Assembly (NCBI GenBank): GCA_030141605.1
Contig: JAQGDQ010000356.1
Span: 63,346-127,345 of the forward strand
Source of the DNA: Tubiluchus corallicola
Lineage: Eukaryota; Priapulida; Priapulimorpha; Priapulimorphida; Tubiluchidae
Length of the DNA stretch: 64,000 nt
Direction: 5' to 3'
Positions within the stretch are counted from its first letter, which is position 1; each line of letters opens with the position of its first letter. Below the pieces are notes generated by a model. It had not been told where the DNA came from and did not search any database. It saw nothing but the letters and a program-made list of their open reading frames with translations. A program made the position numbers and the translations under genes. Below, piece after piece: positions 12,195-43,300 of the stretch.

Positions 12195-12271
<77 letters not shown>

Positions 12272-14362: not shown

Positions 14363-14402
<40 letters not shown>

Positions 14403-17400: not shown

Positions 17401-20400
17401 TGTTCAATAGCGGTAATCTTGTAATACAGTAAACTATGTATGGTGCGTAGTGTTCAATAGCGGTAATCTTGTAATACAGTAAGCTATGTATGGTGCGTAG
17501 TGTTCAATAGCGGTAATCTTGTAATACAGTAAACTATGTATGCTGCGTAGTGTTCAATAGCGGTAATCTTGTAATACAGTAAGCTATGTATGGTGCGTAG
17601 TGTTCAATAGCGGTAATCTTGTAATACAGTAAACTATGTATGGTGCGTAGTGTTCAATAGCGGTAATCTTGTAACACAGTAAGCTATGTATGGTGCGTAG
17701 TGTTCAATAGCGGTAATCTTGTAATACAGTAAACTATGTATGGTGCGTAGTGTTCAATAGCGGTAGTCTTGTAATACAGTAAACTATGTATAACCTGAAC
17801 ACCTTGAGATTGTAAAACATATTTGAGTTATACGAGGATATGAATAAGACAATGTTTGTAAGAAAACAAGATTGAGTCACTCATCAACGTTGAACAATGC
17901 ACTAGTAACACTGCAGACTGCGAAAATGACAAACTGAGAGGTTTTAATCAAATATTAAACAAATAGTTTTTATGAATAATCAAAAGTAAAATGGCTGATC
18001 CACCTCTATTATAGTCTGAGTAGCATAGTTAATAGAATTTGGCAATAATAATATTGTGATCTACATTAAACCACGTTCGTTAAGCCATGTTGTGTGCAGC
18101 GTTCTGCTAAGGTAATGCAAGAAATCTTAGCATTTTTGCTGAAACTAGCAGTTAAAATCGTAATTTGGTGCACACTTTCGTGTAGGATTTCTCGTTTACG
18201 AGGTTATTCCAGATAGAAGAGGTAATTTCAGTTAGATTCATATAAATTGTACCAGTAATTCGGTTTGAGTTACAGGATAATGCGAGTTACAGATTTTTAG
18301 TTATGCGATGTTTGGTAAAGTGAAAATTGAAAGGGAAAATCCGTTTCAGGAGATTTGTTCGAGATTCTCAATAATACAGTTTGAGTTATACATTGTTTAC
18401 TGTAGTAAGTTTCTAATAAATAACGTTCTGTTTACATTGCTATACAAACAGTATTTATTAGTTAAATTATTAATAAAGCTGTAAATAAAAAACTTCTAAA
18501 AATGTAACAGCTATAAAGATTTAAACTAATAAGACACGTGTAAATTCTTTGATTGTGTTACTATGGTTACGAGACAGTGTGTTTGTGCTATTAAGAAAGA
18601 TGATTTATGCCCAAAGGCAACTCTCCATACATGTGCCCCAATATTTACATTAATTTAAAAACTTTGGTTTACCTCACAAGTTTTGTGTATAGATATTTTT
18701 CCAAAAAATATTCGAACAGAATCTTCACAAATTTGTGTCATTACATTGAATTTAACTAGTTTATGTACGCATAAAACTTTTGGTGTTTCTTATAAAAGCT
18801 TTTTTAATGGACGTTCTGTTTCAGTATTCCGCAATGTTTTACCGGAACAGACCACGTTTACATTTCAAGTTGACAAGCCGTGCTTCACTCTAGCAAGAAG
18901 CAGTGAGAGTTTAAAACCTCGCAGAGATTTCAGGATTCTGATCGCCTATGATTCTGGTATGTTACGCTTTGCAGAATTTACACTAATGACGACTTACTAA
19001 TAATGACCTATTGTTATTTTGATGCATAACGGTTGGCATCTTTTGACCTCCTACGTATCAATGGTCCTTGGAAAGTTTGCAATAAAACTTGTAAAATACA
19101 TTATGATTAATTTGTACCAAAGTATAATATTCTGAAGCATTAGTATCATTGAAAGACAAAATTAGTTTTGAACCACTTTACGTGATTGGCAATGTGTAAA
19201 AGTGGAGACGTCGTCTCCAGTTAAAGAGTGGAGATGTTGTCTCCAGTTAAAGAGTGGAGATGTTGTCTCCTGTTGAAGAGTGGAGATGTTGTCTCCTGTT
19301 GAAGCGTTGAGACGCTGTCTTCTATTGAAGAGTTGAGACATTGTCTCCTGTTGAAGAGTGGAGATGTCGTCTCCAGTTGAAGAGTGGAGACCTGTCTTCT
19401 ATTGAAGAGTTGAGACATTGTCTTTTGTTGAAGAGTGGAGATGTCATCTCCCGTTGAAGAGTGGACACGTCGTCTCCAGTTGAAGAGTGGAGATGTCGTC
19501 TCCAGTTGAAGAGTGGAGATGTCGTCTCCAGTTGAAGAGTGGAGATGTCGTCTCCTGTTAAAGAGTGAAGATGTTGTCTCCTGTTGAAGAGTGGGGACAT
19601 TGTCTCCAGTTGAAGAGTGGAGATGTCATCTCCAGTTGAAGAGTGGAGACGTTGTCTCCTGTTGAAAAGTGAAGATGTTGTCTCCTGTTGAAAAGGGAAG
19701 ATGTTGTCTCTAGTTGAAGAGTGGAGATGTTGTCTCCTGTTGAAGAGTGAAGATATTGTCTTCTGTTGAAGAGTGAAGATATTGCCTTCTGTTGAAGAGT
19801 GGAGATGTCATCTCCAGTTGAAGAGTGGAGACGTTGTCTCCTGTTGAAAAGTGAAGATGTTGTCTCCTGTTGAAAAGGGAAGATGTTGTCTCCTGTTGAA
19901 GAGTGGAGATGTTGTCTTCTTTTGAAGAGTGGAGACCTGTCTCCTGTTGAAGAGTGGAGATGTTGTCTCCTGTTGAAGAGTGAAGACGTTGTCTCCTGTT
20001 GAAGGGTGGAGATGTCGTCTCCAGTTGAAGAGTGGAGATGTTGTCTCCTGTTGAAAAGAGAAGATATCATCTCCCGTTGAAGAGTAGAGATGTTGTCTTC
20101 TTTTGAAGAGTGGAGACATTGTCTCCGGTTGAAGAGTGGAGACCTGTCTCCTGTTGAAGAGTGGAGATGTCATCTCGTGTCTAAGTTACTGGTACCTGTA
20201 AACACTCTAAACCTCTGGATGAATAATATTTACTAAAAGTGAATTATTGATGATTTTTCTCTGATTTTTATTAAGATCATTTTAAAGTCTCTTATTTTTC
20301 TAGGTACCAAGAAATCAGTAGCTGGTAAACTCACCGTTTCAACTGCATACCGTCACGGGACTCTGCCCAATATAAAATGGGTTTACTATCTTAGCGGGGT

Positions 20401-20410: not shown

Positions 20411-20678
20411 TTCACGTGTTCCGTTATCCTAATTTGCTGATTTATGTGCATAGAAATGTTTATTCTTTAATTGATGTGTTTATTCTATTCTGGTTCTATT
20501 CTTCGCTTAGTATATCACAAAGTGTTTGTTAGATCTTCACTATAGCCAACTGTGCCAATCTTTTAAATACTTTTATGTTTTTGTATGATATTTATTTAAA
20601 CAAACGTATTATACCATCTCATGCTGTGATAAAGTTTGCCGTGTGTAATCTGCAATGTGTTATTCCGTCCAAAATAAA
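20411..20678 (+). other. hydin: hydin 3' UTR with candidate poly(A) signal
   Basis: AT-rich sequence follows the TGA. The first good AATAAA downstream of the stop is at 20673-20678 on the + strand. The end of the transcript is an inference from this motif only. Confidence 0.4.
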
Positions 20679-21129
20679 TGCATTATTTATGTTAATATTA
20701 CGTTCACCTTCTGTGTTTTCCGTGCGGTTGAAACTTGTTCATAATATCCGTCGTGGCTTGCAAACAGTTCTGGTTTTTCTAGTAGTTTTTTCCGTGCAAA
20801 GTACGATTGTTACTTGGGTAAGTATTTATTTTAGATCATTTTTGCCATACGTAGTAGCAATTTTCAAACAAGTCTCTGATCTGAGTTAAAAACATTTAAG
20901 AAAATTAAATGCCCATTCTTGTGTTTAATCATGGCTACTATAATGTGTAATTCAAATTACAGATATCAATTTTTCTTTGTTTCTGACTACTAGTTACACC
21001 ATGCCTTATACTCTTACATGTAACAACATGTAGATCCTATTTACTTAGATAGCGACAGTGTAAATTCTACTGCTTTCAGGATTTTACTGTTTTTTACACC
21101 CGATGTAAAAGCTCCTTGCAATTAAAGTA
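20679..21129. other. Intergenic, no feature
   Basis: AT-rich unique sequence between the hydin 3' end and MITE copy 3. The short frame at 20575-20889 shows no family features. Confidence 0.5.
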
Positions 21130-22297: not shown

Positions 22298-25200
22298 ATG
22301 AAAAGAATAGCAACTGTTTTCAGTGCATGTTGTGTGAAGCATACGTGTAAGATGGAGCGGATTTTTACTATAAACCAAGAAGCTATAAGAAAATTTGTAC
22401 CTAAACAGGATGATAAGAATCAGAAAGTATCTCACATCTTAACGCCCGTTTTCTTTGCCGCAAAACTCACAGGTCTGTTGCCGCTTAAGCGTAATGCTCG
22501 TACGCATGTTTACGAGGCAAAAAAATGTAGTGCTGTTTTTATTTACTCCGTAACCATGGTGATATTTTATTGTTTCAGCACGACAAGATATTTGTACAGC
22601 ATGATTCGCTTTCCGTCTCACGTAACGATACCGGTGTTTTCCGGATTCATTTTGATGCAGTTAAGCATCGCTACGATAGCGCTGATAAATGTGTGGTCGG
22701 CGAGTCGTTACCCGCGGTTACTCAAGTTCTGGGACGAAATCACTAGTATTGATTGGAATGAAGCAAGGAAACTTAGAAAAAAATTAACCTCGATGGTATC
22801 GGCGGCATTTTCGTTGGTGATCATCGTGATTTTTGCTCTTTTTCTGTTTGGTATTTTTATGCAAGACGTGTTTATGTTGGCACCATGGAATGAAATGTTC
22901 AATCTTGATTATCGTAACGTCACGTTTGGAGTTTTTGCTTATTCAATTGTGAATATGGGACACATTTGGTCGGGATCTTGCTATTTCATTAATATCATCT
23001 GTTTCGTATCTTACTGCACGGTAAGTGATTAAGTTTTCTTTTTCTTGGAATTTTCTTCTTGTTGTTTATCTTTTATATTAAATCATTGAATTCTTTCTTA
23101 ACACTCATAGTTTACACAGTAGCAGGGATGAGAATTTTCCGCAGATACGAGTTTTTCGAGTTTTTGGAAGACCAGTAGTGCCATTTTTGTAAATCTCGTA
23201 AATTTGTTGAGAAAATTTTTACGGACCCAGTACATTATCTCACAAGCAGGCCGCTAGTTGGCAGGCCGTCACTTTGTTTACATCACGTACATCAGTGTAA
23301 CCATGTGTATATCTCTATGTATAAAAATATAGAATCAATTGTGAGGAGTTATTTGAGTCAATTGCAGACAGTTTTTATATACTTTTGCGTAGGAGTGGCC
23401 AGTACTTAGGCGTTTTTGAAACAATTAGGTATCATGTATCCTTGATAGTTGGGCATTTTAAATTATGCATGAAACAAGGTAACTGATATTTTGAGTCCAC
23501 TTAGAGGCTCTCTATGGTCACAAAATTGCAATTTGTTACTGGCTCGAAGGGGACTTCACCCCCCTTGAACCCCATTGGGGGAGGCCCCAAACCTCCCGGC
23601 CCGTTTCAGAGTTTTTTGCAATTTGTCATTCTCATCCCTGCAGTAGGCAGCGCTTAATAGACTCACTTTGGGATGGAAGTATTTTGATCCGATTAACCAA
23701 CTGAATCTATTAGCCGACGGATGTTGTGTCACTAATCCAGACATATGAGTCGTTGCTGTTCAGTTTAGTAAAGCACTGCAAAGATTGTGAGAACTTGAAA
23801 TGTTAAGTGTTTATGCTTATGCTCTACTTTTATGCTTATGCTCTACTTTTATGCTTATGCTCTACTTTTATGCTTATGCTCTACTTTTATGCTTGTGCTC
23901 TACTTTTATGCTTATGCTCTACTTTTATGCTTATGCTCTACTTTTATGCTTATGCTCTACTTTTATGCTTATGCTCTACTTTTATGCTTGTGCTCTACTT
24001 TTATGCTTATGCTCTACTTTTATGCTTATGCTCTACTTTTATGTTTGTGCTCTACTTTTATGCTTATGCTCTACTTTTATGCTTATGCTCTACTTTTATG
24101 CTTATGCTCTACTTTTATGCTTATGCTCTACTTTTATGCTTGTGCTCTACTTTTATGCTTGTGCTCTACTTTTATGCTTATGCTCTACTTTTATGCTTAT
24201 GCTCTACTTTTATGCTTGTGCTCTACTTTTATGCTTATGCTCTACTTTTATGCTTATGCTCTACTTTTATGCTTATGCTCTACTTTTATGCTTATGCTCT
24301 ACTTTTATGCTTATGCTCTACTGTTTATGCTTATGCTCTAAAAATACAAAAAAACTATTTATAGTTTCAAAAAGTACTTGAAAAGGACCATTTTTTATTC
24401 ATACGTATAATACAAGTTCAATGCTTCCATGTCTCATGCAGTCGCAATATATGGCCTCCAATCAATTATAATGCTATTTTACTATACCTCTATGTAAATT
24501 CAACATACACTGTGGTCGTTTTTTCTCCTCTTTTCCATCTTCCTATCCCTAATCTTACTATTTTTTTCCATTCCATCATGTCTACTAACCCTAACCATTC
24601 TTTCATTCACTCATCCTCTCCTCTCTTCCTTCTTCCTATCCCTAATCTTCCTATTTTTCCATTCCATCATTTCTTCTCACCCTAACCATTCTTTCATTCA
24701 CTCATTTGTGCCACCTTAACAAGCCAATCTTTCAAGGTGTCTTACAGCAACTCTTTTATTTGATTAATTGACTTCAGCAACGTTTTTTTACCTATACCAT
24801 TTCTTTTTGTTTCAATAATATTGTATGTTGATGTATTGTATATGTATTGCTGGAGTTAAATAAATTGATTGATTGATTGATTGACTTTTCAAAATGAACC
24901 CTATACTCTTTGTTGCTCTACGATGTTTACGCTCATAAAGTCACAAAGATTTCTGCTGCTGTAACAATGGCATAACAGCTCAAGTTTACTGATTAACTTA
25001 ACTATTGCGATATGCAACAAGAGCTTCATTAAGAAACTGCTAGGCTAGTGATTAAAAGTTTAACTACCATAAATACTTGCACAACCAGGTTAATTACAGC
25101 AGACGAACCAGTGACAGATTCAAAGCAAAAATGATACGCCAGCATATTAGCGTATGACAAATGTACTGATCCTGCGTACAAACAAAATAGTTCTTAATAT

Positions 25201-26617
25201 GATTGTTTCTATGTATATTATAATTCACAAAGATGACATAAAAGTAGTAAAACCTCTTTGATCAGGCACAAGTGTATTATTTTTTAAAAGTATCTAATGG
25301 AAAAATGTTCAGTAAGTTATGCGGAGATATTTGAGACAGTTCGGCGACTGATTCTATTAACTGTGAGTCTAATAAACAGCGTCTACTCTATTAAGCAATC
25401 AGATGTTTTATGATTAACCCAAGATGACATAGCACAGCCTATTTAGCTATGACATTTATAATTTTCAGGTTGCTTGTGTAGAGTTTGACATCATCAATGA
25501 AAAGCTAAAAGATGTAGTAGCCAATGAGGGAAAAGATTTAAGAACACTTAGACTACAGCACAATAGGTAACGTTTGATTTTGCTTTTGTTTCTTAGATAG
25601 ATTTTATATGAAACCCTGCACACGGTGAAACCGGCCGCTAAATGAGTTACTGATTACAAAAGCAGTAATTGTTCACCACTAGGTAGCTCTTGTGGTGGCT
25701 GAGAACACTGCCTGGGCTGTTGTGTTATGCATCAGGGATGACCATCACCCCTACAGAATATTTTTGCGTTAATTAAGTTTAAATTAAATTAACCACATTT
25801 CATTCGACATCAGAAACATTCATTATTTATTTATCCCAGCATGAGTAGCAAGATTTTATAATGTCACACTAAAACCTAAAACCACTTTAGTTGTAAACAA
25901 TCTAGATACTAGAAACTTATGAAACTTATCGTGCATTTTGTACCAGCTGATACAAGCTATTTAGTGCTGTTGACTGTTGCACTGACCACTCCTTACTTCT
26001 TTAAGTGAGATTTATGTAAAAAGTGGCTAACAGTAAGCCTTTTCACAGTTTTGTTGAGCACACGATCAGTTGCTGTTGGTCAAAGGTTAAGTGTTCCACA
26101 GCAACACATCTTAACTACATCCGTCACATGACATGTGGGTAAAGCAAAGCCATCTGTCGTGTCAGTTTGGTAACTTCAGTTATTTCAACTGGACTTTACT
26201 TGATTATGCATTAGTCTGTGCGTAGAGTGACAAGTGTACACAAATGTGTTAACTGGTACACTTAACCTTTGACCTTTTCACGATCATCATCAATTGTTAG
26301 AACTGTGAGAAGGCTTATTATACCCAAGTGCATATAGTTCTGAGTTAGAATCAACAGGACAGCAGGTTCTTATGACTTGATGTTAATTTTTCAGATTGTA
26401 TCAGCTGATTGGCATGTTAGACGGAGTGTCTAAATACATGCTGCTAACTAATTTTAGTTTTGCGTTCATTTCCATTTGCTTCTGTGCATACCTCATCATA
26501 TTCGACGCCATGTTGAATCTACCACCGTATGCAACGCCTTTCTGTGCCGGTTTCATACTCCTGAAGATAATTGCTCTGGTCTCGTTGACAACTTACGCAG
26601 CAAAGGTTAACACTAAG
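22298..26617 (+). CDS. Gustatory-receptor-like cassette 1 (three exons, 348 codons)
   Basis: Exons 22298-23020, 25469-25566 and 26395-26617 have consistent phases (0, 2, 0). Residues 45-60 (ILTPVFFAAKLTGLLPL) match the N-terminal motif of invertebrate gustatory receptors, just before TM1. Hydrophobic segments follow at about residues 78-98, 108-129, 165-190, 210-240 and, in exon 3, two more. Exon 2 (DLRTLRLQHNR) with exon 3 (LYQLIGMLDGVSKY) matches the intracellular loop before TM6. The protein stops short of the last membrane segment and the TY-x5-QF signature, so it needs further exons. I propose the shared exons at 34148-36581, which would give 422 aa. An alternative ATG is at 22352. The 2.4-kb first intron holds an 18-19 bp array and a LINE tail. 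Ligand unknown. Confidence 0.75.
23040..23804. repeat. Intron with family B copy 2
   Basis: 23240-23430 matches family B (GGCCGTCACTTTGTTTACAT, GGAGTTATTTGAGTCAATT). The flanks 23130-23220 and 23510-23640 (GGGACTTCACCCCCCTTGAA) look repetitive, but no second copy of them is in the window. Confidence 0.55.
23805..24338. repeat. 19-bp minisatellite, about 28 copies
   Basis: The unit is ACTTTTATGCTTATGCTCT. There are no stops in any of the three forward frames, which creates three overlapping Cys/Leu/Tyr-rich pseudo-ORFs. It lies in the first intron of receptor cassette 1. Confidence 0.97.
24490..24885 (+). mobile_element. 5'-truncated non-LTR retrotransposon 3' end
   Basis: A pyrimidine-rich stretch with an internal ~130-bp duplication (CCTATCCCTAATCTT...) leads to GGAGTTAAATAAATTGATTG and a (TTGA)n tail, the usual form of a LINE 3' UTR and tail. 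No reverse transcriptase remains. Confidence 0.45.
24886..25468. other. Intron, little feature
   Basis: Unique sequence except 25325-25400, which resembles the tail of family B (GAGACAGTTCGGCGACTGATT versus GAGACAATTAGGGGGTTGATT at 6295). Confidence 0.45.
26034..26318 (-). mobile_element. MITE family A, copy 4, internally deleted
   Basis: Ends TAAGCCTTTTCACAGTT and GAACTGTGAGAAGGCTTA. About 100 bp of the family interior is missing. It sits about 75 bp before exon 3 of receptor cassette 1. Confidence 0.8.
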
Positions 26618-27289
26618 GTGACGTAATTAATCTTCGTATATCAGGCAGTCATAGGGTTGCCACCCCGTTATGAACCAAAGTCATCAGTCAAAAGCTCGGT
26701 AGGAGCCTGCAAGCTCCCCCATTGAGCCCCAGGATCGAGCCCCGAAAGCCAAGCATTTTAGATGTTTCGTGGGGTCTTTTTCAGAAACTAAAATGAAAAA
26801 ATTCAAACTACAAAGTAGTAAAATTATTGATTTTAAACTCCAGAAATCGCTAAAATTCTAAAACTTACAAAAGTTCAAGCAGTCTACATCAATTTCTGGA
26901 GTTTCTTCCCAGTCACATTTCTCACGTTTGCTGAGGATTCTGGGATTGGGTTTAGTCATGAAATTATTAAACACTTTATGTTATGTGAATTAAAGCAGAA
27001 GAATACTTGATTTGCAGCATTTCAACAAAAACTGATGAAAAATGTAGAGGGCATGAAATGATGAAGCCATGCTATCGATTAAAGTTAATTTAATAAGTTT
27101 ACTGTCACCTTAATTAACAGAAACTCAGCTGCTTTTTGGCTTAATCTTTTGCAAAGTGTCAATATCATGTAACTTGTATTTCTGCTTAAATTTCAATGTG
27201 ATGGTCAAAATCATGAGATTTCATAATTTTTCAAATGTCCAACCGTACTACGAATCTATGACTGAATTTTACGAGACTCTGTTCCAAAT
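26618..27289. other. Between receptor cassettes, no coding feature
   Basis: I searched for a receptor C-terminal exon (TY-x5-QF) specific to cassette 1 and saw none. Confidence 0.5.
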
Positions 27290-27727
27290 CAGGCATGATG
27301 GCAACCCTAGACTCTGGGCCAAATCAGGTGTGGCGGCAACCCTACACTCTGGGCCAAATCAGGTGTGGTGTCAACCCTAGTCTCTGGGCCAAATCAGGTG
27401 TGGTGTCAACCCTAGTCTCTGGGCCAAATCAGGTGTGGTGTCAACCCTAGTCTCTGGGCCAAATCAGGTGTGGTGTCAACCCTAGTCTCTGGGCCAAATC
27501 AGGTGTGGTGTCAACCCTAGTCTCTGGGCCAAATCAGGTGTGGTGTCAACCCTAGTCTCTGGGCCAAATCAGGTGTGGTGTCAACCCTAGTCTCTGGGCC
27601 AAATCGGGCATGGTGACAACCCTAGTCTCTGGGCCAAATCGGGCATGGTGACAACCCTAGTCTCTGGGCCAAATCAGGCGTGGTGGCAACCCTAGTCTCT
27701 GGGCCAAATCAGGTATGGTGGCAACCC
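27290..27727. repeat. 35-bp minisatellite, about 12 copies
   Basis: The unit contains TCTGGGCCAAATCAGGTGTG then GTGTCAACCCTAG. It lies between receptor cassettes 1 and 2. Confidence 0.97.
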
Positions 27728-27844
27728 TGTACAGTTATTATACTGACACGAGTTGGAATGTGTGTACATCATCTTGCAAGTAGAATTTTCATTATTCTTT
27801 TATGTTACTATTGTTCAGTTGTATTAGTCAAAGAAAAATTCTTA

Positions 27845-27962
27845 CAGTTTCATGTTGATCAAAAGATGAAAAAGTGAAAAACTAGGACGGAATGTAGATT
27901 TGAACTAGGAACCTTTAGTTTGCAACCTCAATGCTTTTACCTTCAAACCACCCAAGTACTTT
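27845..27962 (-). mobile_element. tRNA-derived SINE head
   Basis: On the minus strand GGGTGGTTTGAAGG resembles an A box and GGTTCCTAGTTCAAATC a B box, about 40 bp apart. They are followed by a non-tRNA body (GTCCTAGTTTTTCAC). One copy only in this window. Confidence 0.5.
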
Positions 27963-28738
27963 ATTTTCAAAGCAGGTCTTAATCCTAGTATCTACCAACA
28001 TTTTCAGCAATTTTGAATCTCATTAGAATAGATTATTTCTTTACTTGGGCAGTTAGGTCAAAAATTGCACAGAAAGACAGACAATTACAAAAAAAAACAT
28101 TTACAAATCTGGGAAATGAAATAACACAGATCTGCAGAGACAGGAGAAATTCCAAGATGCAATTTTGCTAGTGGTCATCTATCCAATTTTTGATCAGGCT
28201 TGGGGTTGCACAACTTTGGTTGTAAAACAAACTCATCAGTTAATATATTTTGAGCTCCTTTGTTTGTGATGTTATAAAGATTGGTTAACCAGTTAAAAAT
28301 AATAATCGTTTAATTTCTGTTTAATAGGCGCCAGCACTAGAAACAAGGTAAAATATCACACCTCAGTAACTTTGTGTTGTGTTCTATTTCTTGTTTACCT
28401 TTCACTTATAATGGCCTTTCTCTAATGTTTATATTCCATTAGTATAGTAAACAAATGAACAGACATTAAGCTACTAATATGTGGTTTCAGTCTGTTGTTT
28501 TTGGCAAGTTACGAACCTGGTGGTTTAGTTCTTGTACTGATTATTATCCTATATAGTAAAAACTGCATACAGGGGGAAGTGAACTAGTGGATAGTGTGCT
28601 TGGCATGTGGTTTTATGTTCTGATGGATTTTGATTATTTTAAGGCTTGACATTGTTTTAGCAATTGTCAGAAGTCAAACTCATCCCGTGTGCTGTTACCT
28701 GAAATACTCAATTCTGATCACACAGACGTTATTTTACT
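27963..28738. other. Between cassettes, no coding feature
   Basis: Unique AT-rich sequence. A 20-base candidate exon at 28328 (APALETR) was considered and rejected. Any promoter for cassette 2 should be here, but no clear core element is visible. Confidence 0.4.
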
Positions 28739-29890
28739 ATGAGAATACAACAACAGGATAGAAAGGCTGATCACGATTTTCCGGATGAAGAATCTCAGTT
28801 TGAAAAGACAAATGTCTATAACGTTTTGCGTCCACTGTTCTTTATATGCAGTTTCTTTGGGTTACTGCATTTACGCTACGATGTTTGCAGTCGGCAGCTT
28901 CACGTCGCAAATGGCAAATCTTATTTTTACTGCCTTTTCGTCATGGCTGTTTATTTATTCAGTTTGGTACGGTTTATTTGGGGCTTAGTGGAAATGCAAT
29001 TTCAGCTTAAAGGAGGGAATCATACTGTGCAAGAAACAGAAAGTGAAGGTTTCACCATCGTTTACGTGTCTTTTCTCTTATTACAATCTCACGTGCTTCT
29101 ACTTGCTTATTGTAGCATGAGTACCAACCATCTCTTCCCGGAGATCATTCACACGTGGAACGACTTGACTAACATATCCGCAGAACGAGGTCGACACTTG
29201 AGAAAGCTCGTGTTTGTGATCACCGTTATTCTTTGCTTGGGTGTTCTTGTGGTGAGTTTGGTGATCTACATCCCGGGCTGGTATAATGATACTGTTCTTA
29301 AAGCACCACATTCGTATTTCTTCTTCTACTATTACGATACTTCCTGGTGTATGATTCTGTACACTGTGAGTGTAGTCATCTACACCTGGCAGCTTGGAAC
29401 TTCTACTTTCTTTAGTGCTCTCTTTGTTTGCTCTTGTAGAATTCTAGCCGTAGAGTTTCGGCTACACAATTCCTGCCTCTCAGCAGTTGTTGATTCGCTG
29501 TCAAACCGGACACGCTGTTCCGATACGTTGGCCATGTACGAGACATGTTTTTATTTACCCGCTTTAGAATCCAATTCCGTTACTTACGAGAAATACAAGG
29601 TTTATGATGGACATTTGAAGACCGAGTCGCTACCAAGCTTTCGCAGCATCCGTCTGCATCACGATCGTCTCTGTCAGCTTTTAAGCAGTTTGGACAACAT
29701 CTTCAGTGGAATGCTTTTCTCTCATTTTGCTTTTGGCATGCTTATCATTCTCTTTTGCTTCTATTTTATCATCTTTGAAAGAGAATTGTCTCTTCCGGAT
29801 TTCGTATCATACATTGCCGTGTTTCTAGTTGTTCTTGATGCACTGGTTTTAAGCTTCGGTTCACACAATGCTACTGTCGTTTCAAAACTG
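28739..29890 (+). CDS. Gustatory-receptor-like cassette 2 (single exon, 384 codons)
   Basis: ATG at 28739 opens a 384-codon exon ending VVSKL at a good GTGAGT donor in phase 0. Residues 25-45 (YNVLRPLFFICSFFGLLHL) carry the family's N-terminal motif. Six hydrophobic segments follow (about 57-77, 98-121, 157-179, 206-230, 320-345, 353-375). The loop before TM6 reads SIRLHHDRLCQLLSSLDNIF, the usual receptor pattern. Like the other cassettes it lacks TM7 and TY-x5-QF, and no private C-terminal exon is seen before cassette 3. Joined to the shared exons it would be 458 aa. A MITE begins 28 bp after the donor; reading through gives a short tail and a stop at 29971. Confidence 0.78.
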
Positions 29891-29918
29891 GTGAGTGCGA
29901 AACTTAAGTATATGTCAA

Positions 29919-30312
29919 TAAGCCTTTTCACAGTTCCAGCGATTGATGATGATTGTGAAAAAATCAAAGGTTAAGTGTACCAGACAACGTCTCGCAGCCC
30001 ATGCTGTTGTAATAGTAACAGTTGTAACAACTAGCTAGAACCTTACCTAGTTTATTTATTTTTTGTTCTCAGGCGTGATCATGCTAGTAAATCATTCTAC
30101 GCACAGACTAATGCATAACTAAGTAAAATTCATGTAAAACAACTGAAGTTACTGGACTGATGCAGCAGACAGCTTTGCTTTACACACATGTCACGTGGGG
30201 GTTGTAGTTAAGATGCCATGCTGTCGTAGTCTAAGATGCCATGCTGTGGTACTCTTAACCTGTGACCTACATCAACTGCACATGCGCTCCGTGAAACTGT
30301 GAAAAGGCTTAT
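29919..30312 (+). mobile_element. MITE family A, copy 5 (best-preserved ends)
   Basis: Starts AATAAGCCTTTTCACAGTT and ends AACTGTGAAAAGGCTTATT, giving 19-bp perfect terminal inverted repeats. The flanks are compatible with a TA target duplication, which is ambiguous because the ends are themselves TA-containing. Confidence 0.88.
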
Positions 30313-31181
30313 TAGTAATAGCCTTGATCGAGTTAAATGTCATTTTGTGAGTAGATATTAGCAATGCGAGTCATGTAAGTAGAATTGCAGTGGTCTGATT
30401 GAAGACTGTGAAGTTTAAATGTGTTTAGCTAAAGAGGATTAGAAGCAAGGGGAGTAATAATCCTGTTGTACCTTACAACTGCAGTTAAGCATAACCAAGC
30501 CTGGCCAGTTATTGGGTGGGTAAGCACCCATGAAAATTAATTCTGTTCCGTTTCTTCTGCTACATGGAATGTCCCCATTAATCACCTTATTGGAGAATGG
30601 CGTGTACAAGTCCAAACAGTGGTTAATTCATCTCTGTCTAGTGTCCCATCTTAGATGATTGTCTGTGATAATGAGTTAAGTGCTGCACCTGTTACAACTA
30701 TCTGCATTAACTAATACACTGCATGCCATGAAATGCTTGATTACAGCTTGCAGTGTACACAGCTGTCCAAGCAGTATGTATGTGTGTGTGTGAAGGTCTA
30801 CTAATCCAATCACAAGTAAATGTATGCAATTACACAAATAAAGCTTTGGCTACAATTTTATCACATGAAATGTTTGCATTGTTGACAGTTTATCTAATGT
30901 GTTTATTGCAGCTGTAATGACAATAGCACCAACATCATATACAATGTCAGCAAATGGAGGCAAATGCTCTCAAATCAATAATCCTTTTGGCTTCCAGTTT
31001 TCACTAATGCTTCTGTATAATTAGCTGCCTTGCCAGGTTTCTCATCACAACAGTCTAAGTCAGTCCAGCGAGATGCTTGTTGAATCATCCTATGATGATT
31101 GTCTCGCATTCAAATTTGAATTTCAATTATAATCTGTTATAGCTTAGCTGTTAAGTAGAGGATTTTTCTCGTACATCGACA
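30313..31181. other. Between cassettes 2 and 3, no coding feature
   Basis: Unique sequence with a short TG tract near 30780. No receptor exon, repeat or core promoter could be supported. Confidence 0.45.
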
Positions 31182-34100
31182 ATGTTCAAATCATGTAACT
31201 CTGTGAGCACCGTGTGTACACTTACCAAGGATACCACTTCCGGCAAAATCCATGCCACTGAAGAAGCGGATGATATGGAAAATGTTGAGATTACCGATAT
31301 TTATAATATAATAATTGGCTGTGGAAAGTGTTTTGGGCTGTTTCCTTTAACCAGGGATAAGAATACCAACAAGTACTTTTACAAGAGGTGGTCGTTTGCT
31401 TGGGTCTACAGCCTTGCAGTGTTTCTATTGTCTTTGTTTCATCTTGCACACTATGTGCACGCCGCATTGCTGACTCGGTTGCCAAACTACGCTGCTCTTT
31501 GCAGTGTGTTCCTCTTCTTACAAATTCACATTGTGATCAGTGTCACGGTGACTTTTATAAATGGAAGACACATCCCTGGAATTCTGAGCGAATGGGAGAA
31601 GGCCTCGTTGTTGCCAAAGCCTAAGCTGAGAAAACTGAAGAGGCATTTTGTGTTTGGTTTTGCTATAGTGTCGACTGGAACACTTGTGTTTTACTTAAGT
31701 TTATTCTACTCCTCGCTTACGTCTACTGTGGTGAGAATGAGTCCAATGCACTTTGTATTTTTCTCCAGTGACGAAGAATTTACTTCTTTTCAGCAAAATT
31801 CAACGAATTACCTTCGCTCCACGATTTTCTCTGCTACCGTTTCCCTATTGCGGGTATATTCCTTTGCCGGAGAGTTGATTACCGTTCTATTGTTCCATGT
31901 ATCGTGCTGTATCATTGTAAAAGAATTCCATACTTGTACTAGCAACATGGAAGATGACATCGGGCATAACGTGTTTAGAATCTGCAAATGGAGACTGTCT
32001 CACTTACGATTGTGTCACGTTCTTGAACAGCTGAACGGTTTGTTTTGCTGGTACCTGTTGACCACTTACGTAATTATACTTTTCGGTTTGATCTCTTCAT
32101 GTTACTTCATAATATTTCGACCAGAAGTTGGCTACAAATATGATCATTCAATATTTATCACAGCTGTAACTCTGGTTGTTCTACTTGCTGTTTTGTTTGT
32201 GTTTACAACGAAGTCTGCATCACAAGTATCACAGCAGGTAATGTTATCTTACAAAATACACCCATAAACGTTCTTCTAGATGAAAATTGGCACCAATCTG
32301 TTGCTTGATTATCACTTAACCAGCTAACAAGGTCCCCACAAAGCATTTGCGACAAAAATCGGTTGGGACTTAATTCGGACAGCAACGGTGTCATCATTTT
32401 TACCGTTTTCATTGTCATCCCAATGATTCCGGGTTTCGTTTTTGTCTGCTTCATTTTTATCACCATCTCTAAAAACAGCAGTGGCGACAAGCGTAACAGT
32501 TTTTAACAAGAAAAGCAAAATAAACAAAAACGCTAGCAACAGCAAAAACAACAACAGCAGCAGCAACAATACAGATGCATCATTGGCACAAATCAATTGT
32601 TGTTTTGAACTTAAAAGCTTTACAAAAACATATTCACACATTATTAGGTTTAATTTGAAATCATTATGAATAATGCACAGCAATTTCACATAGTGTCTTA
32701 GTAGCTTTACTGTGTATACACTAGTAAGTTTTTCTTGCAAAGTAATAATTATAGCCTTCTGTACTGCAGTAAGGCAGCAATGGGTAGTAATAGCAAGACA
32801 ATTCTGAATAGTAAAACCATCAAAGCAATTACTGTTTCAAATAGTGCATATTGGGTATTGAAGAAGAACTTTGAAGTAGACCTTCCCAGTTTCGTTAAGA
32901 GGATATCACTTGTAAACTATTTTTTTCTTTCCTGGAGAGTAGTTGTTTTTTCCAAGATTCCCACAAATTGCAAAGATCGACTTTTCCTGGAAGGCTGATT
33001 GTGAATTTTTCCCATAATTTCCATAGTTGGTTTCTGAAAATACGAATTGTTGCAAGGCCTAGACGTCCCATACAAGTTAAAACCTACTGTACCCAACAGC
33101 AAATAACCCATTAAATCAGGGGTTGATTTGTGATGACAGGATTGTACAGTAAACAGCAAACAAAACCAGATACAAGTGATTATGTTCAAGTCTCCATTGA
33201 TTATCCGAAACCAGTACAACAATGAATGTGCGTTCAAACTATGGCTCTAAACCAATTATAACATTGCAGTGCCATCTACAGTGATTTATATGAAGTATGA
33301 TTAATGAGTAAACTATTCAAATAGCAAACCATCATTGAAGAGACACAAATTTAACAAGGAATCAAAACAAATTGATCATGTATGTGTTATTTTCCAATCG
33401 AAATGAGTGATTCTAGCAAATGTCTTCCCGTGGAAAAACACTTTCTGTTTTTGCTATTTCTGTTTTCCCAAGATTATGTCATTTCACACAGACATTACCG
33501 ACTTGTTACCCTGCATTACTGACTTGTTACCCTGCATTACTGACTTGTTACTCTGCATTACTGACTTGTTACCCTGCATTACTGACTTGTTACCCTGCAT
33601 TACTGACTTGTTACCCTGCATCACTGACTTGTTACCCTGCATTACTGACTTGTTACCCTGCATTACTGACCTGTTACCCTGCATTACTGATTTGTTACCC
33701 TGCATTAATAAGAAATTAATTACCCTGCACTTAACTGACTATAGCAGATAAACCTATCAGAAGTTTTCAAGACAGCTGACAAGTCATAGAGTACAGTAGG
33801 GTAATAAATTCAATTTCAAATTCAATCATTATGATAGGTAATCATAGATAGGTAATTAACTACACTTGATTAGTACACTATAATACACGCAGAAGCCTAA
33901 CACACGCGTTACACTTTATTATAATATTATGCAAAAAAATTCAACATTGGGAATGTAGTGGCCGACGTTGAAGAGGAGGCTCGTCATTGAGGAGGGAGCG
34001 TTAAGATTCCTAGGGCATCAGAATACCCAGAGCCAACTTTGTACATATATTTATATAATTATAATTATGGAATATTAACATATTTTGTTACATATTAGAT

Positions 34101-36581
34101 GTTATTGACTATTTTATCACATGTTGATATAATTATTGTTTTTACAGGCTCACGCTCCATTGCAGATACTTCACAAGTTAGAAAGTTTGCCTATTGATGA
34201 TGATTCTCAGGTAAACAGAATAAACAAAAATTAAAAATAATGAACATATATGATTACTCAAATATTTTACTCAGATTTCGTCATAAACATATATATATAT
34301 ATATATTTTTTTTGTTTTTTTTTGTTTTTGTTTGTTTTGGTTTGTGTTGTTTTTAACATGACATGGTTTTTGTAAATCATTCAAAAGAAGAATGTGTAGT
34401 TCTAAATGAAATGAAGCAAATTGGTGTAGCGATGCCAAATAATGTAAGAATATAACCAGATGTGCAAGCAGACAAAGAAACTATGAACTTTGAAAACCTT
34501 CGAGTGAACAAACCATGGAGGGTTTCAGTTGTAAGATTCTGTGTTGTGTAAAAGATGAATGAATGAAATATTAAAGAAAACGATAAGTCACTTAGCATTT
34601 TTGTAATATTTTACTGCTATTGCTAAAACTTTAAATTTTTTGTTGAAGACTTATTACACTTTGGCGGAAACTTGGCAGCGTGCTGGTTTTCTTCACTCAC
34701 GCTTGGGTGTTCACATTTTTCCACCAATGACGTCACTCATCGGTGGAAGAATATGAGTGCCCAAGCATGAGTGACGTCATTGGTGGAAGAATGTGAGCAC
34801 CCAAACATGAGTGATGTCATTGGTGGAAAAATGTGAGCGGCCAAGCACGAGTGACGTCATTGGTGGAAGAATGTGTGTGCCCATGCATGAGTGACGTCAT
34901 TGGTGGGAAAATGTGAGCGCCCAAGCACGAGTGACGTCATTGGTGGAAGAATGTGAGCGCCCAAGCACGAGTGACGTCATTGGTGGAAGAATGTGAGCGC
35001 CCAAGCATGAGTAACGTCATTGGTGGAAGAATGTGAGCTACCAAGCATGAGTGATGTCATTGGTGGAGGAATGTGAGTGCCCAATCGTGAAATGATCGCA
35101 ACTTTAAAGTGATTTTACTAATTACACGAGGTGCTCATCACGCTTTTGTTACTAAATCCTTCTACCATTTTTTTGCAAACATTGAAATAAGCTTAACTTC
35201 CCAGAATATTTGACTTTTCCTTTAATGGCAGGAAGCTGAAAACAACAACATTTAGCTTCAGAAACGTTTCAAAATGCTGTATGGAAACATATCACTCTAA
35301 GACACATATGACATCTTCTTCATTGTTTTCTACGTTGATGTGTTTTTTACTGATCAGGTTGCTTCTTGAAGATAATATACTTACAGTAAGGGTCAACATA
35401 CATTTTCAGTATGATATGATGATGACACATAGAAAAGTCTAAAGTTATTGTGTTGCATTGACTGCATTATTTATCAGATAAGGGTGTCGTGTAATATGTA
35501 ATAAGGTTTTTCACAGTTCTAATGATTGATGATGATTGTGAAAAGGTCAAAGGTTAAGTATACCAGACAACACATTTGTGTACACTTGACAACCGTCTCA
35601 CAGCCTATCCTATTGTAATAGCAACAGTTTTAACAGCTAGCTAGAACCTTTCCTAGTTCATTTTTTCTTGTTTCTAACCAAGATCCTGCCAGTAAATCAC
35701 TCTATGCACAGACTAATGCATAATTAAGTAAAGTCCACGTAAAACAACTGAAGTTATTGAACTGATGTGGAAGATGGATTTGCTTTACCCAAGTGTTGTG
35801 ATGGTTGTAGCTAAAATGCGTTGCTATTGTACACTTGACCTTTGACCTATAGCAACTGTTGATGCACACAACGAAACAATTATTAATGTACTGCAAGAGC
35901 ATATTTGGTGTCTGATGAGCAACCCGAAGATGCTGATGAAGATGCTTGAGATACGAGTGTTTCTCATAAAATGTTTGATTTTGCAGCTTCAACTATCACT
36001 GTACTTGAGCAAGGTTATGGGTCCTGCTATTGGCTTCACTGGTGGAAATTTGTTTGTCATAAACAATACCATGCTTCTTACGGTATGACACTTTTTATTT
36101 TGCCATCAAAGGGACATGAACTTAATCCAGATCCAATAACGGAATCTAATCTGCTTGAAAAAAATTACACCCAATTTTCTTAGACCGAATAGCTTAATGC
36201 TTAACTTTCAACAAAAACAAATCAATTTTAGCATAAAATCTTCACCGGGTGACATTAGAGCCTAATACTAATGGCTTCGTAGTTACACTAATTTCGCTAT
36301 GTTACTAATCTGTTACAAGGCATTTTATTTTGTTACATGCTGTTTTACTGTGTTAAATTTTCTTTTGCTATATTATGTGTTCTTTTGCTGTGTTACGTGT
36401 TATTTTACTGTGTTACATGCTTTTTCACTGTATTACATAATACACACTTTACAGATAAATTACTTGTTTTTATTACACATTGTTTTATTTCATTACAAAG
36501 TGTTTTTTATTACAGGTTACAAGTGTAATTACAACTTACATAATAGTGATGGTTCAGTTTAGGCTAGGAATGTCAGATTAA
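31182..36581 (+). CDS. Gustatory-receptor-like cassette 3 with C-terminal exons (426 aa)
   Basis: Exons 31182-32237, 34148-34210, 35987-36082 and 36516-36581 (TAA) are all phase 0. The large exon carries IYNIIIGCGKCFGLFPL (N-terminal family motif), hydrophobic segments, and SHLRLCHVLEQLNGLF before TM6. The short exons add APLQILHKLESL, then LYLSKVMGPAIGFTGGNLFV, then TTYIIVMVQF, the canonical C-terminal TY-x5-QF signature, followed by RLGMSD. Length and topology fit seven-transmembrane gustatory-receptor-like cation channels of chemosensory cells. Alternative ATG at 31275. Cassette 3 is the nearest to the common exons. Ligand unknown. Confidence 0.85.
32238..33497. other. Intron of cassette 3, no strong feature
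   Basis: Includes a short CAA/CAG-rich stretch at about 32515-32575. The frames here are low-complexity. Confidence 0.45.
33498..33712. repeat. 21-bp minisatellite, about 10 copies
   Basis: The unit is TGTTACCCTGCATTACTGACT, in the intron of cassette 3. Confidence 0.97.
34148..36581 (+). CDS. C-terminal receptor exons, proposed common to all three cassettes
   Basis: Three exons of 63, 96 and 66 nt encode 74 residues: a loop, TM7 and the TY-x5-QF tail. All junctions are phase 0 and match the phase-0 donors at 26617, 29890 and 32237. Each upstream cassette is missing exactly this part. In Drosophila Gr39a and Gr23a, alternative large 5' exons join shared small 3' exons in the same way (established). 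That it happens here is inference. Confidence 0.65.
34290..34350. repeat. AT and poly-T tract
   Basis: (TA)n followed by T-rich TTTTTGTTT repeats just after the first common receptor exon. Confidence 0.85.
34640..35235. repeat. Interspersed repeat family E carrying a 40-bp CRE/CCAAT array
   Basis: 34697-35082 holds about nine 40-bp units with GTGACGTCATTGGTGG, i.e. TGACGTCA (CREB/ATF palindrome) directly abutting ATTGG (inverted CCAAT). The flank 35083-35232 matches 63430-63610 (CGACTTTAAAGTGATTTT, TACACGAGG, CTTGACTTTTCCTTTAA), so the array sits inside a dispersed element. Confidence 0.85.
35502..35884 (+). mobile_element. MITE family A, copy 6
   Basis: Family interior with a decayed left end (AAGGTTTTTCACAGTT) and truncated right end. 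It lies about 100 bp before the second common receptor exon. Confidence 0.78.
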
Positions 36582-37440: not shown

Positions 37441-40368
37441 TTTAAAACTGACCACAACTACAGTCATTTGGTTGGTTGCAAAACTCGTTATGCTGCTTCT
37501 CATATCGAGTGCACACTTATATATTACCTTATGTGGAAGTTGGAATTGTACATTATAATTAGGTGCTGCCATCTATGGGCTAATCCTTTTACATTCTACC
37601 ATCCTGTTACATTCTGCATAGGTCACCTATACCTATATATACTGACTGGTTTTGCTTTCTAGTCACTCTCAGTGTTCAACGCAGGAGACTCTCACTCTCA
37701 GTTCAGTGCAGCAATCATGCTACTCATGTGTCTGTAGGTTTAATAAACACTTCTCTGTTGTGTGCAGTGCAAATGTGTATTCTAGATTTTTTATTCTTGT
37801 TCATACTTCTGTGCCTAAACTCAATCATAACAAAGTGAGTGATCTACAACTTTAAACATGACTTTCACACCTTACATTGCCAGTATTGTACATCAAAGTC
37901 AACAGTTTTATAAAATACTATTTTAATTGTAAACAAAGAAGTAACACTATTGTTAAGTTTGTGGCAAACTAATCTCAGTTCACCGTTAAATCAGCAATGG
38001 GTTTTAATTTACAACATACGCGTAAATGTTGCACATTGAACTGTAGTACTCATCGGTTAGAAAATGGATATTTTGGCAAGGAGATCAGTGAGCCAAAAAG
38101 CTTTGACAGGAAATCAATATGGTTTTGAATTAAGCAATGAAACCAATAAGCATTGAATGTAATGATTTTCATTTCTCATGTTAATTTGCAAGAAATTGTA
38201 CTGCTTCTATCTTTTAGCAGAAATACTAGGTCAATTAATTCTTTTTACTGTAGTTATGTTTGTTTTATTACTAATCGTGTAAATCATCTTCACTGATAAA
38301 ACTTTTTTTTATTAAATGCTTATGTAAAGTGTTTGAAATAAAATGATTTTAATAATAAAAATAAAGTTTCTGCTTTACGGAGAAATGAATCACAAAACTT
38401 TGTTACACGAAAACTTCCAATACGACTGCCATTATAATGGACAGCAGACTAGGTGACTTTATAGTCTATTCGCTATACTTTCTCTAGTTCTAGATCTATT
38501 TATACATTTTAACCATTCTTCAAAACTTATTAGAGATTCTTTTATTAATCATGTTTTATTGTAGAGATTCATTTATTAATCATTATAGAGATAAATAAAT
38601 TAAAATTGAATTGAAATTAAATTGAATGTCTCATTGTTTCATGACTGTTTTCCTTTGCTAGCAAGTTGTGTTTTAGCAATAAATAAATAAATAAAATCAG
38701 CCATGTTAAACTGTGAACAAAAAACTGAAATCTCATAGTATCAATGTAATTATACAGTTTTATTATGAATAAAACAAAAAGCGCATATATATATATAAAT
38801 CTGTTACCTTTTCTCATATTTATGACATTATTCACTAAATAAAAACTATAAAACAAAGACAACCAAAGTACGCCTCAACTAGTGGAATTATACCATAGGC
38901 ATGATCACGAACATTATTCATGTTCATATTCATAAAGGAAGCAAGACATAATTCTCGGAGAAACACAACACATATCATAAGAGTATGCATTACAATGTAA
39001 CTAGAAGCATGATTTTGTTCATAAAATAAATAAACTATTAAAACACTGTAACTAAAAATGTAGGATTCGTTACAACACTCGGTTGTACGAGGATGTAGTT
39101 TCCTATACAACAAAGAACACGCATCTAATTAAAACAGGTAATGAAACTAAGCTTACACGGGAAAAGTATGACGACTTTCACCCGGTGACACATGTTCAAC
39201 TTTAGTTAAATATGAGTTTAAACAACAGATGGATTTTAACAAGGTTGGCATTACAATAATCGTGCTAAAAGGCACACTAGTGGGTACACGAATGTCTGTG
39301 CCCTTTGTTATTAAAGCACAAAGGATAAAACAGAAGCTATCGACACATTACCAATAGGAGGCACACGACTGTTTTTACAATTTATACAATTCGAACGGTG
39401 AAAATAATTCTACTTACAAGGTCGTATCGTTGATATGTGCAGCCAGCCGACCAGAACGTCGTTAAACTTATTCTTAAAGCATGTCATTTTTTGTATTTTG
39501 TTAAAGTTGCTTGACTTGCAAATAAAAAGCACGATTACTATTATTTTGTTTACCATAATATCATAATTTACTTGGTTTTACCTTCCATGATAAAATTTTG
39601 CAACAAAAAACGACTCATACTTAAGCACATGCAGAAATTACAGTGTATGAGCTCAGAACAGATAGACAATCAAACCAGTAAAACAATTTCTCAATACGTT
39701 GACTAAAATTTACGTATAGCACGTTAAAAATAGATCTTAATTTAAGTAAAATCACTTTACAATTTCGCAGGACATACGGTGCTAAAAACCTCTCAATTAA
39801 AACTGTAACGAATTTCAATTATATATATATTTATGTACATGTGTCATATTCATTTAATACCCTTTCCTCTGATGGGCTTGTAGCTCTTTGCTAAACAGTA
39901 ACAGTAAAACACGTGAAAAGCGAATAAGCATCTATTTCATTAAAGTAATTTGTCACTAGATGGCAGGAAGCTGTGTGGATCTTGCTCTGAACCCTTTAAC
40001 ATTGCACAAGCTCCGAAATAATTAGCACATTACACTACTGATGGCGCCACAAGTCCAAAAATATACTATACTAAACTACCTTGCAGCACTCTAACTAAAA
40101 GTTGGACAGACGCTTCTTGTCGCTGTCACAACGCAACCACTTAAAAACAATTGCTACTTTGTATTCAAATTAAATACCACAACCAAAAATACAACAAACG
40201 AGACCGAAAACACTGCATTCTGAGCACAACAACACAAATGAAATTTCCCAAATAACAAGACACGGTGAAGATATTTCATTTTTACAAACGTACTATGTGA
40301 ACAACAGCATTTTTTACATTCGTGTTTATGCACACGTTTAATTACAGCAAACGATGATGAAATGGCGG
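37441..40368. other. Intergenic between convergent receptor and scrib 3' ends
   Basis: No exon on either strand. 37600-37830 has a TATA-like stretch, an AATAAA and a pyrimidine-rich end reminiscent of a solo LTR, without proven termini. 38460-38625 ends in AAATTGAATTG repeats, like a LINE tail. On the minus strand this region must include the scrib 3' UTR. Confidence 0.35.
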
Positions 40369-43300
40369 TTAACTTTGACTTCCGTTTGTTTCCCCGGTTT
40401 GTACGTTCACTTCAACTATCTGCTGCTTTCTTGTCTCAATCTGGAAAAAAAACATACAAATTTGATATACAGCAGACGGCTTTGCTTTACACAAACGTCA
40501 GGCAACGGTTGTAGTTAAGACGCGTTGCTGTAGTACACTTATTGTACTAAAAGTATAACAAAATTGCGAGTTAGTTTATATACTGACAGCTTATTAACAC
40601 CGAAACCCGATACAATAAAATCATCCGAGTTGAATATACTAAAGATTTCCACTGTAAACACAGTTCAATTAGAGACATTCTTGTCCATTTTGCCACAACA
40701 CAATCAATGAATTGCGATTCGAACAGCGTATCAATTTACATACTTCTTACATACGTTTCCATCGACTTTGTGCGCTCATTAAAAGTTTAAAATTAATGAC
40801 TTTTTTCTAAGCACAACTTTCTTCTTTGAATTTAATTACTATTAATTATTAATATTATTTAACTACTATTAATTAGCTACTTTTATTGCTAATACATATG
40901 AGAGTATTTTAGACACCCTGTCTCATATCTACGATGCTTAGCAACAAATTATCTTGCAACCTACAAATCGTGCAAACATGGTTACAACCGTCGCTAATTA
41001 TTACAAATTATTATTGTTACAGCATAGAGATGGCGCCACCTGCTACTTATGGCTGCCTTTTAGGTTTCTTAGCAAACTGTTAATGAAATTTAACTGAAAG
41101 GATACAAAATATAAACAACTGCTTATTATTTTATTTTATATTATTTAAATTCCTAATTGTAAGTCGTACACAGGATAATGCATTTGTCATTTCTTTAGTA
41201 AATCAGCAATAATAGTTATTCTCATTTCAAAGGATCCTGAATTTGCAGCTCTTAGAGGTTTTGTCCGGAGCAGAAATGAAATCACCGGGGGTCACAAGCC
41301 GCGAATGAACTGAAGCCGTTTAACATTACACACAATTTTACAATAGTGTGACATTATTCACACCATTAATGCATTTTCAATTCTACTCTTAATAAAGCCA
41401 CAATTAATGAATTAAAACCAAATTCTTCTGCAACTTACGACCGAATCTTCACTCAAAACAATAAGTCTTTTTACAGTTCCAGTGATTGATGATGATCGTG
41501 AAAAGGTCAAAGGTTAAGTGTACCAGACAACGCGTTTGTGTACACTTGACAGCACCTTGCAGCCCATGCTGTTATAATAGTGACAGTTTTAACAGCTAAC
41601 TAGAACCTTACGTAGTTTATTTTTTCTTGTTCCCAAGCAAAATTCTGCTAGTAAATCACTCTACGCACAGACTAATGTATAATTAAGTAAAGTCCACGTA
41701 AAACAACCAAAGTTAGCTAACTGATGCAGCAGACGGCTTTGCTTTACACAAATGTCACACGACGGTTGTAATTAAGACGCGTTGCTGTAGTACACTTAAC
41801 CTTTGACCTGCAGCACGTATTGAAACTGTGAAAGGGCTTATTAATGTAACTGGATGATTTTAAGACGTCGTCACAATGCGATTACGTAGCATATTGTATG
41901 CGAAAAGCAAGTCTGGTGTTAAAAAATGCTTGCGAATTAATAGAGCAAAGCAAGTTTAACATGCAATGATATTCATCAGATTTTACAGACAGTTACAAAG
42001 TTTGTATTATAAGTCATCAGATTTCACAGGCAATTACAAAGTTTGTATTATAAGTACTTCAAGAAAGTTTCTCAGATTCTTACAGAATAGAACAATGAAA
42101 CCATTCTTTCTTGCAAAACAACGTAATTCCATTTCATCAAATCAACGTATATCAAACCAATAATAAAATGATTCAAAACAGGAAGGCAGGTTCCAGTTCA
42201 ATTCACATTCAGATTACAGTTCAAGTGAAGTTTTTCACAGGGCAGTGAGAAGGGTGGTGGGTCACTAAGAACTAACCCAAAATTTTTGAAAAAGCCTTTT
42301 GCCTCCCCCATTATTATACTGCTCTAAGATTAGGCAAAAATTCACTTGGAAAACAAAAATCTGCAGAAATCAGTTTTCGAAACAATACAGACCACGTTTG
42401 CAACTATATTTTATGCTACTTTTCAAAATTTCAGGTACTGCTTCTTACGACAACGATAAGTTCTGTTCATAAATTGTGTGCTTGCAAACCAAAACTGTCC
42501 ATAAGTCGGCATAGTTAAAATTATGTAGAAGTAGAAAGCACCAAAAATTTAGTCAAATGTCAAATTGTGAAAACTTGTTTTTTCAAATCAGAAGTAGCTC
42601 ATTGAAGCAGTCATTTTGCTTCTGCTTTTTCTGTTGCCAAGCGCAGATCTTCTACAGGAAGAGGCATCTACTGAATTTAAACATAACTTCAATGTGTTCT
42701 TGTAAACTCCATAGCAACCAACTTTTGTACGGTAGCTAAGTATTTTGTAGAAACGCGACGAAAACAATGGCTAACTTTAACAGTGATTTTCTCAAGATTA
42801 TGTTTTTCAGTGCACAGCCTGCATCTCAACTTCAATGTGGATTATCTCAGCTTAGAAATAACATAGAGCGATGAACTTGGTATCAGAATGATCCTCGTGA
42901 AATGGAGATTCAGGATGTGTGAATAACTAGAAAAGCTTAAATAATGACTTATGGACTATATTGCTATGCAAGCACACACATGATGGCTTCATACTGTCAC
43001 CTGTAATTTGTTTGTTGTCGGGGTCAGTACAAATGCTTATACGTTGTTTCACAAATGTCATGCATTCATTGATGACAACAGTTCTAGACTGATATGATGA
43101 TAAAAAAACACCGACTAACCATAAGCGCTGATAGTGATTCGTGGTAAATAAACAATAATAAATTGAATTACTATAGCAACGAAGAAGTCAGTTTTATCCA
43201 GAACAAAGCGGAGAGAATTTCACATAGAAAAATAGCAAAGTGGAATTTAAAAATGCAATATACAAAAGTGAAACTTGTGCAAGAGAAAGAATTTCGGATA

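Follow-up and report, generated by a model that had tools for sequence, protein, structure and literature searches.

In insects, chemoreceptor genes in which several alternative 5' units are joined to one common 3' part are known and common (PMC2204066, PMC6175461, PMC6080948). In Drosophila Gr39a, several large 5' exons encode transmembrane segments (TM) 1 to 6 and each carries a splice donor, while three small shared exons, where the first acceptor is located, encode TM7 and the C-terminus; Gr23a and Gr28b are likewise given as alternatively spliced (PMC2204066). Alternatively spliced gustatory receptor genes (Grs) of the cockroach Blattella germanica, such as Gr60a-m, resemble this arrangement, and some of their junctions have RNAseq support (PMC6175461). 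In the firebrat Thermobia domestica, alternatively spliced odorant receptor genes (Ors) and Orco-like genes place tandem first exons on shared C-terminal exons (PMC6080948). Here we analyze a receptor locus in a 64,000-nucleotide stretch of contig JAQGDQ010000356.1 (referred to as the window), which contains only the letters A, C, G and T. The locus carries three consecutive receptor bodies, none of which contains TM7 and all of which terminate in a phase-0 donor, as in a Gr39a-type locus; three small exons encoding TM7 and the C-terminus are located downstream. Most probably, the locus constitutes one gene of the gustatory receptor type (seven-transmembrane, 7TM, ion channel) with three alternative 5' cassettes (C1, C2 and C3) and one constant 3' part. 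Such sharing matches the published anatomy of Gr39a, an insect precedent invoked in the initial annotation of this DNA.

The bodies of C1, C2 and C3 comprise 348, 384 and 352 codons and end in phase 0 at positions 26617, 29890 and 32237, respectively (Table 1). Joining of the exons by script to the shared tail, which terminates in TYIIVMVQFRLGMSD followed by a stop codon, yields products of 422, 458 and 426 aa, so that exon ends, phases and lengths of the initial annotation were reproduced exactly. C1 is composed of three exons, a split that the initial annotation does not mention; its first intron, of phase 0, follows codon 241 (of 422) and its second is of phase 2, which together with the shared phase-0 introns gives the series 0-2-0-0-0. 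All three joined products match the Pfam family 7tm_7 (PF08395, curated cutoff 26.6 bits): C1 with 97.9 bits (E 9.8e-28, profile positions 3-368 of 370), C2 with 84.1 bits (E 1.5e-23, 1-368) and C3 with 81.4 bits (E 1e-22, 4-368). Taken alone, the bodies score 54.8, 42.5 and 31.9 bits with matches that end at profile positions 279, 287 and 295, respectively, while the 74-aa tail alone scores 38.9 bits and covers positions 303-368; body and tail are thus complementary parts of one family model. This agrees with the earlier statement that none of the three bodies encodes TM7 or the TY-x5-QF motif, whereas one downstream exon set holds both.

Further features place the locus in the same family. 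Six hydrophobic segments are seen in each body, to which C1 and C2 add a weaker N-terminal one, and a single segment is found in the tail, which gives the seven TM segments of the gustatory receptor and gustatory receptor-like (GR/GRL) branch as judged by hydropathy alone. The TYhhhhhQF motif of TM7 is present as TYIIVMVQF at position 36534, and the last of the three terminal phase-0 introns precedes its TY by six codons (VTSVIT), as in the Grs of Daphnia (PMC2680840). On the basis of profile matches and gene structure, the locus belongs to the animal GR/GRL branch of the insect chemoreceptor (7TM ion channel) superfamily, and its products are predicted to act as ligand-gated cation channels. 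C1 also exceeds the cutoff of the odorant receptor family 7tm_6 (PF02949; 33.2 bits, cutoff 25.8 bits), far under its 7tm_7 score, and no 7tm_6 row was returned for the C2 and C3 products in the Pfam search; placement in the insect odorant receptor family was therefore rejected. Gustatory receptors in the PDB matched a profile of the products only with E-values of 0.02, 0.18 and 0.31. A structure predicted for the C2 body with C3 as the sole other alignment row was too poor to use (mean pLDDT 41.2, pTM 0.25).

Compared with the insect systems, the locus differs in number and partition of its exons. Gr39a has four or five large exons, as opposed to the three cassettes observed here, and its alternative unit is one large exon, whereas C1 is split by introns of phases 0 and 2 (PMC2204066). 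In Blattella germanica the alternative units are long first exons, of which there are up to 13 (PMC6175461). In Thermobia the shared part comprises four short exons that follow a phase-2 intron, as opposed to three here, which start after the first of the three terminal phase-0 introns (PMC6080948). By phase list, C1 with the tail (0-2-0-0-0) coincides with TdomOrco and Or1-8 (PMC6080948). C1 pairs this phase list with being the only body whose joined product lies above the 7tm_6 cutoff. The Grs of Daphnia pulex resemble the locus in that most have three terminal phase-0 introns, the last one located six codons before TYhhhhhQF in almost all of them, and 49 genes carry a mid-gene phase-0 intron, as does C1 (PMC2680840). 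Three terminal phase-0 introns have been described throughout the GRLs of other animals (PMC6175461).

A shared tail implies that C1 and C2 lack C-terminal exons of their own, for which the initial annotation had proposed a search in the gaps behind them. The pattern T[YFHW]x5[QVM][FYM] occurs 11 times in the six frames of the window, and a looser pattern many more times, yet by eye only the match at 36534 is receptor-like in either case. An insect-only TM7 profile, built from two insect receptor C-termini and run over 2795 stop-to-stop open reading frames of at least 15 aa, ranked the shared last exon first, if weakly (10.5 bits, independent E-value (iE) 0.077); ranks two and three (7.9 and 6.4 bits) lie on the opposite strand, and rank four (5.4 bits) lies at 25783-25845, within the second intron of C1 and upstream of its last body exon. 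In addition, we employed a splice-aware scan of the three gaps, in which phase-0 exons of 12 to ~40 codons (AG-to-GT and AG-to-stop) were scored against the shared exons, with 54 two-kb bins as the null. For the last exon, 95% of the null lies at 13 and its maximum is 17; the best scores in the three gaps were 8.5, 9.0 and 11.5, so that no private last exon was detected there. As an insect Gr43a-type last exon, cut by eye, reaches 38 in the same scan, a phase-0 private last exon of such divergence would be visible. For the last exon, the existence of exactly one TM7 exon set downstream is consequently a firm conclusion from the sequence, while it is a weak one for the first two shared exons considered by themselves.

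Some individual candidates were rejected. A putative exon at 28328-28347 (APALETR, acceptor score 2.59) comprises 20 nucleotides (nt) between AG and GT and would break the frame between phase-0 sites, and a TYx5VF-like match at 35304 has a stop two codons ahead of it. A search for further receptor bodies in the window with a body profile recovered only C1, C2 and C3; two minus-strand matches, at 52083-52307 (12.1 bits, iE 0.012) and 38838-39128 (10.5 bits, iE 0.034), were judged not credible.

All three bodies are open throughout. Their pairwise identity is 27.4% (C1-C2), 21.2% (C1-C3) and 24.2% (C2-C3), and in the same order agreement is highest at codon position 2 (0.56, 0.49 and 0.50) and lowest at codon position 3 (0.31, 0.28 and 0.28). 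Fourfold sites agree in 9 of 27, 9 of 26 and 12 of 28 cases, which is little above the chance expectation of 26% and thus near-saturated. The stop-to-stop runs of C2 (418 aa) and C3 (370 aa) exceed the longest run found in 200 simulations of 15-kb intron-like sequence (196 aa). Deep divergence, open frames and family-wide conservation together indicate long purifying selection on all three bodies, which on this sequence evidence is also compatible with a very recent loss of function.

The splice sites, scored with a home-made approximate matrix and ranked among the 970 GTs and 777 AGs between 22 and 37 kb, fit a joint tail as well. The body donors at 26617, 29890 and 32237 are in the top 2.1%, 0.1% and 1.5% of GTs, respectively, and the shared acceptor at 34148 is in the top 1.2% of AGs (score 4.51). 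From 300 nt upstream of C2 to 50 nt inside it there is no acceptor scoring above 1; four such acceptor-like sites are found upstream of C3 and one upstream of C1, whose exons 2 and 3 carry acceptors by nature as internal exons. In our proposed mechanism, each cassette would most likely start from its own promoter, with the primary transcript running to a common 3' end near 37 kb. Provided that C2 and C3 act as first exons, a transcript begun ahead of them would leave them out and splice from its final donor to 34148. A start ahead of C1 would lead to splicing of the C1 exons to each other, skipping of C2 and C3 and arrival at 34148, which transcripts starting ahead of C2 or C3 would reach over shorter introns. 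Promoter choice would thereby decide the product, as suggested by Gr39a, where the large exons have donors and the first acceptor is found at the small-exon block (PMC2204066). Each product would then place a private TM1-TM6 part, by homology to insect receptors the ligand-pocket part, on an identical TM7 with its TYhhhhhQF pore-gate motif. In BmGr9, the Gln and Phe of this motif are part of the S7b pore helix, in its gate region, and the receptor is inactivated when either is replaced by Ala (PMC11062906). Bodies without the tail should therefore not form a channel, and the plan would combine a constant gate with three distinct sensing parts.

A number of observations weigh against this account. 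Between 26618 and 34148, four AGs outscore the shared acceptor, namely 30073 (the best), 31355, 31769 and 29487; the first lies in a dispersed repeat and would, from a phase-0 donor, lead to a stop after one codon, and the remaining three are located within C2 or C3, where joining would be out of the frame of the cassette. The AG at 31794 scores 4.01 as opposed to 4.51 for 34148; spliced to it, an upstream donor would enter the middle of C3 in frame, and such use is compatible with everything observed. The four acceptor-like sites ahead of C3 are located 128-270 nt upstream of it. In the splice-aware scan, the insect benchmarks for shared exon 1 (0 and -1) and shared exon 2 (13.5 and 12.5) stay below the highest null scores, 25 and 16, respectively, and the scan consequently says little on private counterparts of these two exons alone. 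Relatives that could show the array to be conserved were not found either, neither for the C2 product (none at E 0.001 among 4712 candidates) nor for the three-product profile (none at E 0.1 among 3755 candidates), which is weak evidence, as the search requires exact shared words. Finally, a recent and separate loss of the C1 and C2 tails would look identical to the arrangement observed.

Such a loss would leave C3 and the three small exons as the only working gene, with C1 and C2 as tandem duplicates that have turned into young pseudogenes. C3 is indeed closest to the small exons, the link of the other two bodies to them is a predicted one, and pseudogenic genes and isoforms are known from chemoreceptor arrays (PMC6175461). 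We nevertheless regard this as improbable, considering that C1 and C2 are fully open, carry good donors at the same place and combine near-saturated fourfold sites with a conserved protein, and that a single shared plan, already known in the family, is a simpler explanation than the independent loss of two tails at one and the same intron. It is very unlikely that C1 and C2 instead possess private C-terminal exons that are too divergent or located outside the window, which would make the locus three ordinary genes. At the divergence of insect receptors, counterparts of the first two shared exons are hard to detect, and the segment at 25783-25845 reaches 7.2 bits (iE 1.2) with an insect-plus-shared profile, but it sits inside a C1 intron; the last exon is detectable at insect-level divergence, with none in the gaps and none receptor-like elsewhere in the 64 kb, and same-strand exons beyond the window would lie past the shared exons anyway. 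Least credible of all is that C1 and C2 give rise to truncated six-TM proteins by intron read-through or early polyadenylation: the C2 frame stays open for 27 codons past its donor (stop at 29972-29974) and AATAAA hexamers occur at 30837 and 32519, yet the donor scores are high compared with the surrounding region, and without TM7 a body would miss the pore helix known from BmGr9 (PMC11062906). Sharing of one C-terminus, the central proposal of the initial annotation, thus stands as the best-supported reading in view of the profile complementarity, the lack of a detectable private last exon, the intact near-saturated bodies and the good donors, while the splicing itself is something we infer.

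Table 1. Exons of the receptor locus and the downstream candidate poly(A) signal (window positions; HMM, hidden Markov model).
Feature	Position	Strand	Description
C1 exon 1	22298..23020	+	First ATG at 22298, another in frame at 22352; encodes the N-terminal portion of the body; phase-0 donor
C1 exon 2	25469..25566	+	98 nt, followed by phase-2 intron; 35.3 bits with body HMM (C1 itself in HMM)
C1 exon 3	26395..26617	+	End of body with last two hydrophobic segments before tail; phase-0 donor AAG/GTGACG; 113.3 bits with body HMM (C1 itself in HMM)
C2	28739..29890	+	Single exon; six hydrophobic TM-like segments and a weak N-terminal one; phase-0 donor CTG/GTGAGT
C3	31182..32237	+	One exon with six hydrophobic, TM-like segments and phase-0 donor CAG/GTAATG
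Shared exon 1	34148..34210	+	AHAPLQILHKLESLPIDDDSQ; 21 codons; phase 0 on both sides
Shared exon 2	35987..36082	+	32 aa; phase 0 on both sides
Shared exon 3	36516..36581	+	21 codons, starting six codons ahead of TY; end of TM7, TYIIVMVQF, stop
First AATAAA past stop codon	37075..37080	+	Putative poly(A) signal common to all products, judged from the hexamer alone

The locus offers a clean case, in that three deeply diverged receptors would share one identical pore helix, and allows asking whether the tail fixes conduction and the body fixes sensing. Its wider meaning depends on the species: an insect locus of this kind would be ordinary, while one from outside the insects would date or multiply the origin of the splicing plan. 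No report of the plan outside insects was found in the literature covered, which is partial, excludes supplements and includes papers on a centipede (PMC4244043), a mite (PMC6275457), Daphnia (PMC2680840) and unicellular GRLs (PMC7746228); in the available text of the Daphnia paper, 'splic' occurs twice, on splice-site prediction programs and not on alternative splicing (PMC2680840). Tentatively, and with slightly more doubt than conviction, we suggest that the animal is not an insect and that the swapping of sensor parts on a constant pore tail at the conserved terminal phase-0 intron would then be an old or repeatedly invented GR/GRL trick rather than an insect speciality. In that case the phase series of C1 would also agree with an ancestral gene structure, of which the intronless C2 and C3 would be derivatives.

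From an adjacent HYDIN gene, the initial annotation had suggested that such an extension beyond insects is possible. The 3' part of HYDIN does lie upstream of the locus on the plus strand (window 1700-19000), with its last exons pointing towards the receptors and minisatellites between its exons. Its exon translations match Hydrocephalus-inducing protein (403 bits) and Hydin (223 bits) in the PDB, presumably the mammalian and Chlamydomonas chains, as well as other proteins named HYDIN. In the best alignments of 18 relatives, identity amounts to 41% for octopus, 34-44% for three mammals and 37% for the EukProt entry Opistho-2; a snake protein reaches 64%, over only 16% of the query. These identities do not assign the animal to a group. 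While the gene is thereby confirmed, its presence does not show that the arrangement extends beyond insects: no HYDIN ortholog is listed for Drosophila in the available text (PMC6367277), and a survey of HYDIN across insects was not found in the literature, so that the gene favours a species outside Drosophila-like flies without proving a non-insect.

A Pfam search at E 1 gave no match for an open reading frame at 20533-20886. Exons with VRTAKAERR and LKSLENDAIQAQMIIS motifs on the minus strand (44055-48922) resemble the C-terminal part of Scribble, a tentative identification; they gave no match in the PDB. The window holds 68 TRF tandem-repeat rows, overlapping rows counted, and several of these repeats lie in introns of the receptor locus, at 23810-24340, 27277-27728, 33493-33707 and 34737-35084. 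A dispersed repeat with terminal inverted ends (AATAAGCCTTTTCACAGTT-like) is found at 26034-26320, 29917-30311, 35500-35796 and 40467-40541, with copies ~79-89% alike in the aligned pieces. The copies at 29.9 and 35.5 kb have the opposite orientation to the one at 26.0 kb, so that long stems enclosing C1 exon 3 and C2 could arise in a C1 pre-mRNA; an effect of such stems on splicing is speculation on our part. Three further segments, at 15587-15997 (plus strand), 52083-52665 and 54604-54964 (both minus strand), share a visual resemblance (..HAF..L.VRRA.., ..ALYFNF..) and may represent one dispersed repeat.

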